Made by a program: the position numbers and the translations under genes. DNA of 32,112 nucleotides from Planctomycetia bacterium (GTDB taxonomy: Bacteria; Planctomycetota; UBA1135; GCA-002686595). The notes under the pieces were generated by a model. The model saw only the letters and a list, made by a program, of their open reading frames with translations. It was not told the origin of the DNA and did not search any database. Location: NCBI GenBank assembly GCA_005799545.1, contig SYGM01000186.1, forward strand, positions 1 to 32,112, written 5' to 3'. This document shows positions 11,371-18,837 of this stretch, one piece after another (position 1 is the first letter of the stretch; the number at the start of each line of letters is the position of its first letter).

Positions 11371-11426
11371 GGTGCACCAGTCTTGCGCACCCGCGGCGGC
11401 GCGTCCATCGGTTGTGCTTCCCTTGG

Positions 11427-11432
11427 TACCAT
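11427..11432 (+). promoter_or_regulatory. possible -10 box for the M1 aminopeptidase operon
   Basis: TACCAT ends 12 nt before the ATG at 11445, in the divergent gap. No -35 element is convincing. It follows the same near-leaderless spacing seen elsewhere in this window. Confidence 0.35.
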
Positions 11433-11444
11433 TCGCCCACCCCC

Positions 11445-13844
11445 ATGCGCGTCCGTGCCGCCTGCCTGTGTCTGCCCTTCGCCCTGCTGGCCTGCCAGAG
11501 CGGAGTGGCCCCGCGCATCAGCGAGCCCGCGCCTCAGCGGCTGGAGGCAGCGCTGCGCCAATTCGATCTGGAGCACTACTCGCTCGACATCACGCTGGAT
11601 CCCAACCATCGCTCGCTGGCGGCCCGCGCCAAGCTGCGCCTGATTGCGCGTCAGCCGGAGCTGACGGCGGTTCAGCTGGCACTGGTTGATCTCAAGGTGC
11701 TGGCCGTGCAGGGCGAGTTGTGCGCGCCGGGTGGGTTCGCGCAGGATGAGCGCGGCGTGCGGATTCCGCTACGGCGTGCGCCGGCCGCGGGAGAAGCGCT
11801 GGAGCTGGAGGTGGAGTATTCAGGCCAACCCACTCGCGGGCTCTACTTCGCTCGCGAGCGCAGCGGTCAGCCCACGCAGGTCTGGACGCAGGGCGAATGC
11901 GTCGAGGTCTCCGGCTGGTTGCCCAACCTGCTCGATCCGGCCGACCGCGCCAGCGGCGAGATCCGAGTGCGCATGCCCGGAAGCTGGCGCGCGATGGCCG
12001 CAGGCGTCCGGCTGAGCCGCGAGGAGCAGGGTGAGCAGGCCGTGGAGCACTGGCGCATGGACCTGCCGCATCCTGCCTATCTGGTGACGCTCACGGCGGG
12101 TGAGTTCGTCGAGGCGAAGGATGAGCTCAACGGGCTGCCGCTGCACTATCTGGTGGCACCGGAGTACGAGGCCTGCATTCCCTCGAGCTTCGAGCGAACC
12201 CCGGAAATTCTGCAGTTCTTCAGCCGGATCACCGCACGGCGCTATCCCTGGCCGAAGTACGCGCAGACCAGCGTCGACAACTTCCACTTCGGCGGCATGG
12301 AGAACATCTCGGCCACCACGCTGACCGACCTGGCGCTGGTGGATGAGCTGGCGGCGCGCGACGGCGGCATGGACGGACTGGTCGCGCACGAGGCCGCTCA
12401 CCAGTGGTTCGGCGATCTGGTGACCTGTGAAGACTGGTCGCAGGCCTGGCTCAACGAGGGCTTCGCGACGTACTTCACGGCGCTGTACACGGCGGAGAGC
12501 GAGGGGGAACAGGCCTTCCAGCTGGCCGTGGACGACATGAACCGCTCCATGGCCGAGCGCGCACTCCGGCATCCGCCGCGCGCGATCGTCTGGGATCAGG
12601 CGCGCGATCCCATGCAGCTGTTCCTGACGGGCCACATCTATGCCGGCGCAGCTCAGCGCCTGCATCTGCTGCGTGCGAGCATCGGCGATGCTGCCTTCTT
12701 CCGCGGAGTGCAGCTGTACCTCTCGCAGCATCAGCACGGCAGCGTGAGCACTGCCGACCTTCTGGCTGCGATGGAGAGCGCTTGCGGCAAGCAGCTCGAT
12801 GCGTTCTTCGCGCAGTGGTTCGAGACACCCGGTGCGCCAAGCCTTGAGCTGCGCTGGAAGCACGATGCCGCCTCGAAGGTCCTGCTGGTCAGCATCGATC
12901 AGACCCATACCGTCGCTGACGGCGTGCCGGCCTGCTTCCGCATCGACACGGAACTTGAGATCGCGGATGCCGCGGGTGTGCGGCGCATCCCCGTGACGCT
13001 CGACTCGCGCAAGGAACTGCTCGAGATTCCGGCCGAGCAGGCTCCGCGCTGGGTGCGCTTCGATCCGCGCGGCTACGTGCCCAAGCAGCTGACGGAGGAA
13101 TGGAGCCTTGAGGCGCTGCTGGCGCTCGCAAAGGACGCGCGCGAGGCACCGGCGCGACGCACCGCGCTGGAGCGCCTCGTGGAACAGCACCGTTCAAGAG
13201 CCCCGGTGCAGGAACTGCTGGTCGGGCAGCTGACGCGCGAACCGCTGGGGCGGCTGCGGGCGCTGATCGCGGGCGCGATCGAGCCTTCTGCGGCCGATGC
13301 CCGGGCCGCGCTGCTGCAGGCTGCACGGACCGAGGAGGCCGCCGGCGTGCGCGCGGCGGCGCTGGAGCGTCTTGCCGGGCTGCCGCCGGCACCCGAGCTG
13401 CGCGAGCTGGCATTGGGAGAGCTGCAGCAGCCCTACAGCTACGCCACTTTTGGTGCGGCCGCCCAGCTGCTGGTGGTTCAGGACGCAGAGCTCGCGCGCG
13501 AGCGCCTGCGTGCCTTCGAGTCGCAAGGCGATGCGGCGGGCCGCGCGCAGACGGCGCTGCTGCGTGTCTGGCTGCAGCTGGGCGAGCGCGCGCGTCTGAT
13601 CGAATGGGCTCGCGATGCGGCGCGTCCGGTGCTGCTGCGCGAAGGCTGCGTGCGCGCGCTTTCGCAGGAGCGCGAGCTGCTGCGGAGTCTGCTGAACGAT
13701 GCCTCGTTCCGCGTGCGTCGCGCGGCGATCGACGGACTCGATGCGCGCGATGCGGACTTGCTGCGGCCTCGGCTCGCCAGTCCGATGATGCCCGAGGTGA
13801 TCGCCGTCGAGGCCGCGCTGGCGCGCCGGCCCAAGGGCGGCTGA
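11445..13844 (+). CDS. M1-family zinc aminopeptidase, predicted lipoprotein, with HEAT-like C-terminus
   Basis: This 799-aa protein begins with a signal sequence ending LLAC at Cys17, so it is probably a lipoprotein. The M1 core is complete. The exopeptidase motif GGMEN lies at residues 283-287. The zinc motif HEAAH is at 315-319, with Glu338 in NEGFA as third ligand at the canonical spacing. Residues from about 560 onward are rich in Leu, Ala, Arg and Glu in repeated helix pairs, resembling the HEAT/ARM-like domain of M1 enzymes. The family removes N-terminal residues from peptides. The ATG at 11445 starts the signal; the in-frame TTG at 11412 is less likely. The next gene starts 1 nt after the stop, so it heads an operon with the AhpD-like and peroxiredoxin genes. 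Confidence 0.93.
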   Translation: MRVRAACLCLPFALLACQSGVAPRISEPAPQRLEAALRQFDLEHYSLDITLDPNHRSLAARAKLRLIARQPELTAVQLALVDLKVLAVQGELCAPGGFAQDERGVRIPLRRAPAAGEALELEVEYSGQPTRGLYFARERSGQPTQVWTQGECVEVSGWLPNLLDPADRASGEIRVRMPGSWRAMAAGVRLSREEQGEQAVEHWRMDLPHPAYLVTLTAGEFVEAKDELNGLPLHYLVAPEYEACIPSSFERTPEILQFFSRITARRYPWPKYAQTSVDNFHFGGMENISATTLTDLALVDELAARDGGMDGLVAHEAAHQWFGDLVTCEDWSQAWLNEGFATYFTALYTAESEGEQAFQLAVDDMNRSMAERALRHPPRAIVWDQARDPMQLFLTGHIYAGAAQRLHLLRASIGDAAFFRGVQLYLSQHQHGSVSTADLLAAMESACGKQLDAFFAQWFETPGAPSLELRWKHDAASKVLLVSIDQTHTVADGVPACFRIDTELEIADAAGVRRIPVTLDSRKELLEIPAEQAPRWVRFDPRGYVPKQLTEEWSLEALLALAKDAREAPARRTALERLVEQHRSRAPVQELLVGQLTREPLGRLRALIAGAIEPSAADARAALLQAARTEEAAGVRAAALERLAGLPPAPELRELALGELQQPYSYATFGAAAQLLVVQDAELARERLRAFESQGDAAGRAQTALLRVWLQLGERARLIEWARDAARPVLLREGCVRALSQERELLRSLLNDASFRVRRAAIDGLDARDADLLRPRLASPMMPEVIAVEAALARRPKGG

Positions 13845-13845
13845 G

Positions 13846-14436
13846 ATGAGCTGGCTGCGTCTCGTTCGCCCGGAGGAAGCCGAAGGCGAGCTGGCCCGCT
13901 CCTACGCGGAAGCGCTGCAGCGCGCCGGTCGCGTGTATCAGATCGTGCAGGCGATGAGCCTCGCGCCGCGCGTGCTCGATGCTTCCATGGCGCTCTACCA
14001 GCGCGTGATGTTCGCGCCCTCGGGTTCGGGCATCGGGCTGTCGCGCGATCGGCGCGAATTGCTGGCCGTGGTGGTCAGCCGCACCAACGCCTGCCACTAC
14101 TGAACGCAGGCTCACCTGTGGGATCTCCGTGCCGAGGTCCGCGAAAGGCTGGGGGCGATGACCGAGGACTGGCTGCGGGCAGTGGCGCAGGACTGGCAGC
14201 AGGCCCGCCTGTCTCCTGCGGACATCGCGCTGTGCGCCTACGCAGAGCGGTTGACGCGGACACCGGGTGAAATGCGAGAATCGGACGTGCAGGAGCTGCG
14301 CGCCTGCGGCTTTTCGGATCGAGAGATCCACGATGCCGTGCAGGTGATCGCCTTCTTCAACTACATCAACCGCATCGCCGACGCGATCCATGTAGATCTT
14401 GAGCCGGAGATGAGCCCCTACCCGCAACAGACATGA
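13846..14436 (+). CDS. AhpD-like / peroxidase-related protein, probable selenoprotein (in-frame TGA at 14101-14103)
   Basis: The frame from ATG 13846 meets TGA at 14101 but continues in the same frame to TGA 14434-14436, giving 196 residues if the TGA is read as selenocysteine 86. The protein fits the carboxymuconolactone decarboxylase/AhpD-like, peroxidase-related family on both sides of the TGA: RLVRPEEAEGELA and AGRVYQIVQAMSL before it, VVVSRTNACHY just before, then TQAHLWDLR, and FFNYINRIADAI near the end. In relatives the motif is CxxC followed by His four residues later. Here it is Cys83-His-Tyr-U86-Thr-Gln-Ala-His90, so the stop replaces the second redox cysteine exactly. Family members act as thiol reductants or peroxidases, and AhpD recycles AhpC. 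It starts 1 nt after the M1 gene and overlaps the peroxiredoxin start by ATGA. The alternative is a nonsense mutation or sequencing error in a TGC codon. Confidence 0.82.
14105..14143 (+). promoter_or_regulatory. candidate bacterial SECIS stem-loop after the TGA codon
   Basis: An irregular hairpin can be drawn. CGC 14105-14107 pairs with GCG 14141-14143, GG 14109-14110 with CC 14139-14140, ACCT 14114-14117 with AGGT 14135-14138, and GG 14120-14121 with CC 14132-14133. The apical loop (14122-14131) starts with G, 18 nt after the TGA, within the range known for bacterial SECIS. A competing simpler hairpin (14105-14110 with 14115-14120) also exists. No folding energy was computed. Confidence 0.4.
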
Positions 14437-15074
14437 TCCCCAATGGCATTCCGCGCATCGGCGATCCCGCCCCCGACTTCACGCAGGCCAGCACCCACGG
14501 ACCCCTGACGCTCTCCACCTGGGCCGAGGGCAAGTGGGTGGTGCTGTTCTCGCATCCGGCCGACTTCACGCCGGTCTGCTCGACCGAGCTGACCGAGCTG
14601 GCGCGCCGCGCGGGCGATTTCGAAAAGCTCAACGCCAAGCTGGTGGGCCTGTCGATCGATTCGATCCACAGTCACCTCGCCTGGCGCGAGAATCTGCGTG
14701 AAAAGCTGGGCGTCGAGATCGGCTACCCGATCCTCGCCGACCTCGACATGAAGGTCGCGACGCTCTACGGCATGCTGCACCCCGGGGCCTCCGCGACCGC
14801 GACCGTGCGCGCGGTCTTCCTGATCGATCCCACCCGCACGATCCGCGCGCTGGTCTACTATCCGATGAATGTCGGGCGCAATGTCGATGAACTGCTGCGC
14901 CTGCTCACAGCTCTGCAGGTTGGGGACACGCACAAGTGCGCGCTGCCGGTCAACTGGCGGCCCGGTGACAAGGTGATCGTGCCTGCGCCGAAGACCGTGC
15001 AGGAGGTCGAGGAACGCAAGCAGAACGCCGCCTACGAGAAGATCGACTTCTATCTCAGCAAGAAGTCGCTCTAG
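14433..15074 (+). CDS. Prx6-type (1-Cys-like) peroxiredoxin
   Basis: This 213-aa protein has the length of the Prx6 subfamily, longer than typical 2-Cys AhpC. HPADFTPVCSTEL carries Thr46 and the peroxidatic Cys49; Arg126 in ATVRAVFLIDP is the usual partner in the active site. SIDSIHSHLAW and PILADLDMKVATLYGML are also family hallmarks, and the C-terminal region (about 165-213, including LPVNWRPGDKVIVP) is the dimerisation extension. A second cysteine lies at 169. The enzyme reduces peroxides in the cytoplasm and needs an electron donor. The gene starts inside the stop of the AhpD-like gene (ATGA at 14433-14436), so the two are probably made together and the AhpD-like protein is a likely donor. 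Its stop shares a CTAG palindrome with the convergent gene. Confidence 0.95.
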   Translation: MIPNGIPRIGDPAPDFTQASTHGPLTLSTWAEGKWVVLFSHPADFTPVCSTELTELARRAGDFEKLNAKLVGLSIDSIHSHLAWRENLREKLGVEIGYPILADLDMKVATLYGMLHPGASATATVRAVFLIDPTRTIRALVYYPMNVGRNVDELLRLLTALQVGDTHKCALPVNWRPGDKVIVPAPKTVQEVEERKQNAAYEKIDFYLSKKSL

Positions 15075-18460: not shown

Positions 18461-18837
18461 TGACAGGAGAGGCCTTGTAAGCCGGATTCTGTGCCTTCCC
18501 AAGGGAAGACGGCAGCCATTTCTCTGGGGCCGCAGTCGCCTGCGGCCTCGAACGACCTACCCGGACGGCGCGACGCGGGTCGTCGCCATGGGCCGTCCCG
18601 ATTTGGTCTTTCTCCGGGTGGGGTGTGCCGTGCCGGTGGCGTCGCCGTCACCGCGGTGCGCTCGTCCCGCACCGTGTCACCCTTGCCGCCGACCCTCGTC
18701 GGGCCGGCGGCGGTTTGATTTCTGTGGCACTTTCCCTGACCTCGCGGCCGGTTGCCGTTGGCAACCACCCTGACCCGTGGAGTCCGGACTTTCCTCCCGC
18801 CCTGAAGGGCGAGCGGCTGCCCCGGCCTCTCCTGTCA
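18461..18837 (-). ncRNA. rnpB: RNase P RNA, bacterial type A
   Basis: The minus strand carries the universal RNase P RNA marks in order: GAGGAAAGTCCGGACTCCA (complement of 18778-18796), AGAGAAATGG (complement of 18516-18525) and ACAGAATCCGGCTTACA (complement of 18476-18492). The ends are set by a perfect 14-bp P1 helix: TGACAGGAGAGGCC at the 5' end (complement of 18824-18837) pairs with its reverse complement at the 3' end (18461-18474). The RNA is the catalytic part of RNase P, which matures tRNA 5' ends. Its length of about 377 nt is normal for type A. Open frames drawn across it on both strands are not genes. Confidence 0.96.

Follow-up and report, generated by a model that had tools for sequence, protein, structure and literature searches.

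Does an in-frame TGA within an AhpD-like gene of a planctomycete contig encode selenocysteine (Sec), or does it mark a broken gene? The frame in question lies in a stretch of 32,112 nucleotides, analysed as a whole and called the window here. It starts at the ATG at 13846, meets a TGA at 14101-14103 and then remains open until the TGA at 14434-14436. Ordinary ORF calling splits it into two pieces, 13846-14103 (85 aa) and 14158-14436 (92 aa). The relevant features of the window, all on the plus strand, are the following.

11412-13844, plus strand: M1-family metallopeptidase gene (Pfam PF01433, 154 bits), with one base from its stop to the next ATG.
13846-14436, plus strand: predicted AhpD-like (peroxidase-related, TIGR01926) selenoprotein gene, 196 aa via UGA readthrough, from profile matches, alignment and predicted fold.
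14092-14094, plus strand: Cys83 (TGC), likely resolving partner in CxxU, invariant in the ortholog alignment.
14101-14103, plus strand: UGA codon of the predicted Sec86, second position of CxxU; TGA in 70/70 and 80/80 loci, Cys in distant stop-free homologues.
14113-14115, plus strand: His90 of the CxxUxxxH motif, invariant in the ortholog alignment and also kept in PDB 6k40.
14121-14140, plus strand: candidate SECIS hairpin GGAUCUC-CGUGCC-GAGGUCC, with its apical loop at 14128-14133 and a spacing of 24 nt to the UGA.
14433-15074, plus strand: peroxiredoxin gene (AhpC/TSA and 1-cysPrx_C; NCBIfam PRK13189) of the Cys form (TPVC), whose start overlaps the stop of the predicted selenoprotein gene.

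An earlier note, made from the letters of the window, had described a single 196-residue AhpD-like/peroxidase-related protein across the TGA. The profiles agree: the readthrough protein passes the curated cut-off of TIGR01926 ('peroxidase-related enzyme') with 144.5 bits against 81.8, and it also passes Pfam CMD and TIGR00778. The active-site motif can be read directly as C83-H-Y-U86-T-Q-A-H90, which places the TGA at the second Cys of CxxC and a His four residues on, as the note had stated. Its account of the gene boundaries also holds, both for the two pieces produced by standard callers and for the stop that overlaps the peroxiredoxin start (ATGA, with the ATG at 14433). Cys83, U86, His90 and Glu71 are all invariant in the ortholog alignment. 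AlphaFold, run on the full readthrough protein with 25 orthologues, confidently predicts a full-length AhpD fold (mean pLDDT 94.5, pTM 0.90) in which residue 86 lies close to the start of helix 84-119. The best PDB match of the model is Deinococcus radiodurans AhpD (6k40, TM 0.82/0.87); similar peroxidase-related proteins also rank among the top structural matches.

Seen in one draft metagenome-assembled genome (MAG), a single TGA in a gene that standard callers split could reflect a nonsense mutation or a sequencing error, and the locus could be a pseudogene or an assembly artefact. This explanation is refuted because the TGA is conserved across genomes. In a relatives' set of 61 genomes including its own, 55 of which contain a homologue, 70/70 homologous loci, the window's gene among them, have their TGA precisely at the second CxxC position. 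The same codon is TGA in 80/80 loci from named GTDB contigs spanning Planctomycetota, Acidobacteriota, Chloroflexota, Gemmatimonadota and Armatimonadota. These 150 loci come from many independent assemblies, with some genomes shared between the two sets. Protein identity downstream of the TGA stays at the upstream level in the ortholog alignment, and codons beyond the TGA appear to be selected (see the hairpin below). The shared codon and the undiminished identity bear out the earlier note's argument that a chance nonsense mutation is unlikely, and we consider the probability of a pseudogene or artefact to be negligible. As a separate observation, the homologue at L083 (relative G050) appears disrupted downstream of the TGA, with two separate matches and further in-frame TGAs, possibly through a frameshift or an assembly error.

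An open frame would result as well if the UGA were read through with another amino acid, or if TGA were reassigned genome-wide (e.g., to Trp or Gly). Reassignment is contradicted by the window, where the M1 peptidase, the predicted selenoprotein and a phosphomutase all terminate at TGA. A residue other than Sec would also sit poorly at a codon that takes the place of a catalytic Cys. The homologue alignment suggested in the earlier note finds TGA in the relatives and Cys in distant stop-free forms, with TGT or TGC at the Sec codon wherever the motif is readable; the matched stretch of one fetched locus, L176, is without CxxC. A tree of 55 rows puts 38 Sec rows together in a well-supported group (98/91); four distant Sec rows lie outside it, and 11 of the 13 Cys rows belong to one separate clade. 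The distribution of the two forms argues in the same direction: 67 of 148 phylum genomes carry the TGA form, and selA passes the cut-off in 63 of them, whereas the stop-free form alone occurs in 8 genomes, with selA over the cut-off in 0/8. The association between the TGA form and selA presence has a Fisher p of 3e-8, an optimistic value because the genomes are related. The remaining 4 TGA-form genomes, without a selA match over the cut-off, are drafts about 90-92% complete. A distant Cys paralogue also occurs in some selA-bearing genomes (e.g., L186, L193-L195).

The Sec machinery of the host genome, a draft MAG of 3.4 Mb and 77% completeness in which the window is contig 162 and which very probably comes from an uncultured planctomycete, further counts against any reading other than Sec. 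The search for selA, selB, selD and a selC tRNA that the earlier note had called for recovers all four: selA (484 bits), selB (343 bits summed over its pieces), selD (328 bits) and a tRNA-Sec (72 bits against a gathering score of 47; anticodon tca (UCA) according to ARAGORN). selA, selD and the tRNA-Sec share one contig. Host selD contains one internal TGA, read as ...ADCAGUAAKMP..., at the position we regard as the customary site of Sec in SelD, and is predicted from this to be a selenoprotein itself.

G000 contig 160 (L196 11236-11238): internal TGA of selD, on the same contig as selA and tRNA-Sec.

Non-Sec readthrough or reassignment thus appears highly improbable. We conclude, with a probability of about 97%, that 13846-14436 is one intact gene, which would encode an AhpD-like thiol/selenol oxidoreductase with Sec at UGA 14101-14103.

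The strongest other TGA-interrupted frame with coding-like flanks in the window, at TGA 27814 (minus strand), was rejected as a candidate: this TGA is an ordinary stop that separates a phosphoglucomutase/phosphomannomutase gene from a TsaD/TsaB-like gene. The window also carries an RNase P RNA of bacterial class A (18462-18832, minus strand; 273 bits).

The bacterial SECIS model calls for a loop of 3-9 nt, a stem of 4-16 bp, a spacing of 16-37 nt from the UGA, a G within the first two loop positions and an energy of -7.5 kcal/mol or lower (PMC13188914). The hairpin at 14121-14140 fits this model, with a 7-bp stem, a 6-nt loop (CGUGCC) with G at position 2, and -8.8 to -10.4 kcal/mol. We rejected a SECIS-like hairpin as sole evidence, given that 12-17% of codons pass in the control; a model-fitting hairpin at least as stable follows 12% of codons in the window's ordinary genes. 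Since such hairpins are not rare by themselves, the evidence for a SECIS is its conservation. The loop Arg codon is CGT in 44/50 orthologues, compared with 8% of Arg codons in the rest of these genes, and a Leu codon is CTC in 47/50, compared with 43% of Leu codons elsewhere. Stem pair 24-37 is C-G in 32 orthologous sequences and U-A in 9, and its shuffle test ignores the relatedness of the sequences. This pattern of codon and base-pair use suggests that the hairpin is under selection at the RNA level. A 63-nt segment spanning the UGA and the sequence beyond it, folded as a whole, is no more stable than shuffles (z 0.04), and Rfam gives no matching family at the hairpin site; the SECIS signal comes from the local hairpin and from how well it is conserved.

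In sixteen more distant paralogues the UGA is followed by another hairpin, GGCGC-GGUCU-GCGCC, which hardly varies. Paralogues L066-L081 of the relatives, mostly of the CHYUxxHHRRGLRR type, make up a second AhpD-like TGA group with this GGUCU-loop hairpin, and the two apparently conserved SECIS types would be a new detail. Two side observations concern other UGAs. Distant TGA homologues of the CVFU/CHFU types (L190-L192) have the segment GCGGUCGCGG after the UGA, possibly a third SECIS form. After the UGA of host selD, a hairpin GCGCA-CGUGU-UGCGC can form with a CGUG loop like that at 14121-14140; being a single sequence, it is a lead only.

The commonest conserved neighbour of the gene in this planctomycete group is the M1-family peptidase. 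A same-strand M1-family-like gene lies upstream in 29 of the 54 loci that are labelled Planctomycetota or unnamed and include 2 kb upstream of the gene; among loci from other phyla the figure is 0/16. This frequent neighbour is a new detail. The earlier note had implied a link to the peroxiredoxin, which is the weak point of its interpretation. The two genes overlap by ATGA in the window and M. tuberculosis AhpD supplies electrons to AhpC (PMC8945050), and an AhpC/AhpD-type pair is possible at this locus. However, across the ~150 loci examined, only a handful of further genomes (L021/L088, L092, L125) have a close relative of the peroxiredoxin in the vicinity of the gene. Because its adjacency is rarely conserved, the pairing is not general, and we rejected the peroxiredoxin as a general partner. 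That the protein mainly reduces the adjacent peroxiredoxin would be a special case of the selenoprotein explanation, not an exclusive rival to it, and seems to us rather doubtful.

On comparative grounds, SelB bound to the hairpin just 3' of the UGA would bring Sec-tRNA to 14101-14103, and Sec insertion would place CxxU as the active site on a helix of the AhpD type. If the chemistry follows that of AhpD, the nucleophile that attacks a peroxide or a disulfide would be Sec86, the Se-S bond would be resolved by Cys83, and proton relay would fall to His90 together with Glu71. The enzyme may then be reduced by a dithiol, for example dihydrolipoamide or thioredoxin. D. radiodurans becomes more sensitive to H2O2 when its AhpD-like protein is lost, and the CxxC cysteines of that protein matter for complementation (reviewed in PMC8945050). 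A broader and more speculative proposal, which we hold to be unlikely, is that of an obligate selenoprotein subfamily in planctomycetes and several other phyla. In this subfamily the CGUG-loop and GGUCU-loop SECIS would dictate the protein segments DLRAEV and (in the paralogues) HHRRGLRRL, respectively; in one planctomycete group, the protein would in addition work with the M1-type peptidase in an undescribed redox process.

As the earlier note had said, AhpD-like selenoproteins were already known from metagenomic surveys. The family is not new, because AhpD-like CxxU selenoproteins of COG2128/TIGR01926 were reported in 27 Sargasso Sea sequences in 2005 (PMC1088965) and in 299 Global Ocean Sampling sequences in 2008 (PMC2398784); TIGR01926 with CxxU is also listed in a 2026 review (PMC13188914). 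The word AhpD is absent from the main text of a 2016 study of planctomycete selenoproteins (PMC4807772). The apparent fixation of Sec across the group of this protein would be a new detail. A selenoprotein family known from metagenomes can now be assigned to planctomycete genomes whose Sec machinery is complete, and ordinary ORF calling is seen to split its gene all through this group. SelB recognition could be tested on these loci, which offer a large, clean collection of Sec/Cys pairs and of SECIS elements. The general picture of selenium biology is unchanged.

Among known systems, D. radiodurans AhpD (6k40) shares the fold and family of the window protein and its active-site layout, CxxCxxxH, but has Cys instead of Sec, and the structural alignment gives about 38% identity. 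M. tuberculosis AhpD (PDB 1gu9/1knc) has a CxxC-type redox site and shares the AhpD core, but its fold matches only weakly (E 0.02, TM about 0.5, identity about 12%), and it is not a close relative. The AhpD-related CFYUT selenoprotein NF041238 has the CxYU motif in common with the window protein, but represents a different, longer family whose equivalog cut-off the window protein misses (76.7 bits against 175). Closest is the AhpD-like 1 family (COG2128/TIGR01926): it is the same family, with CxxU, UGA-encoded Sec and a predicted downstream SECIS. It is known mainly from marine metagenome reads, whereas the window gene lies in a probable planctomycete genome with full Sec machinery, and the M1-peptidase/peroxiredoxin neighbourhood further sets the window gene apart.
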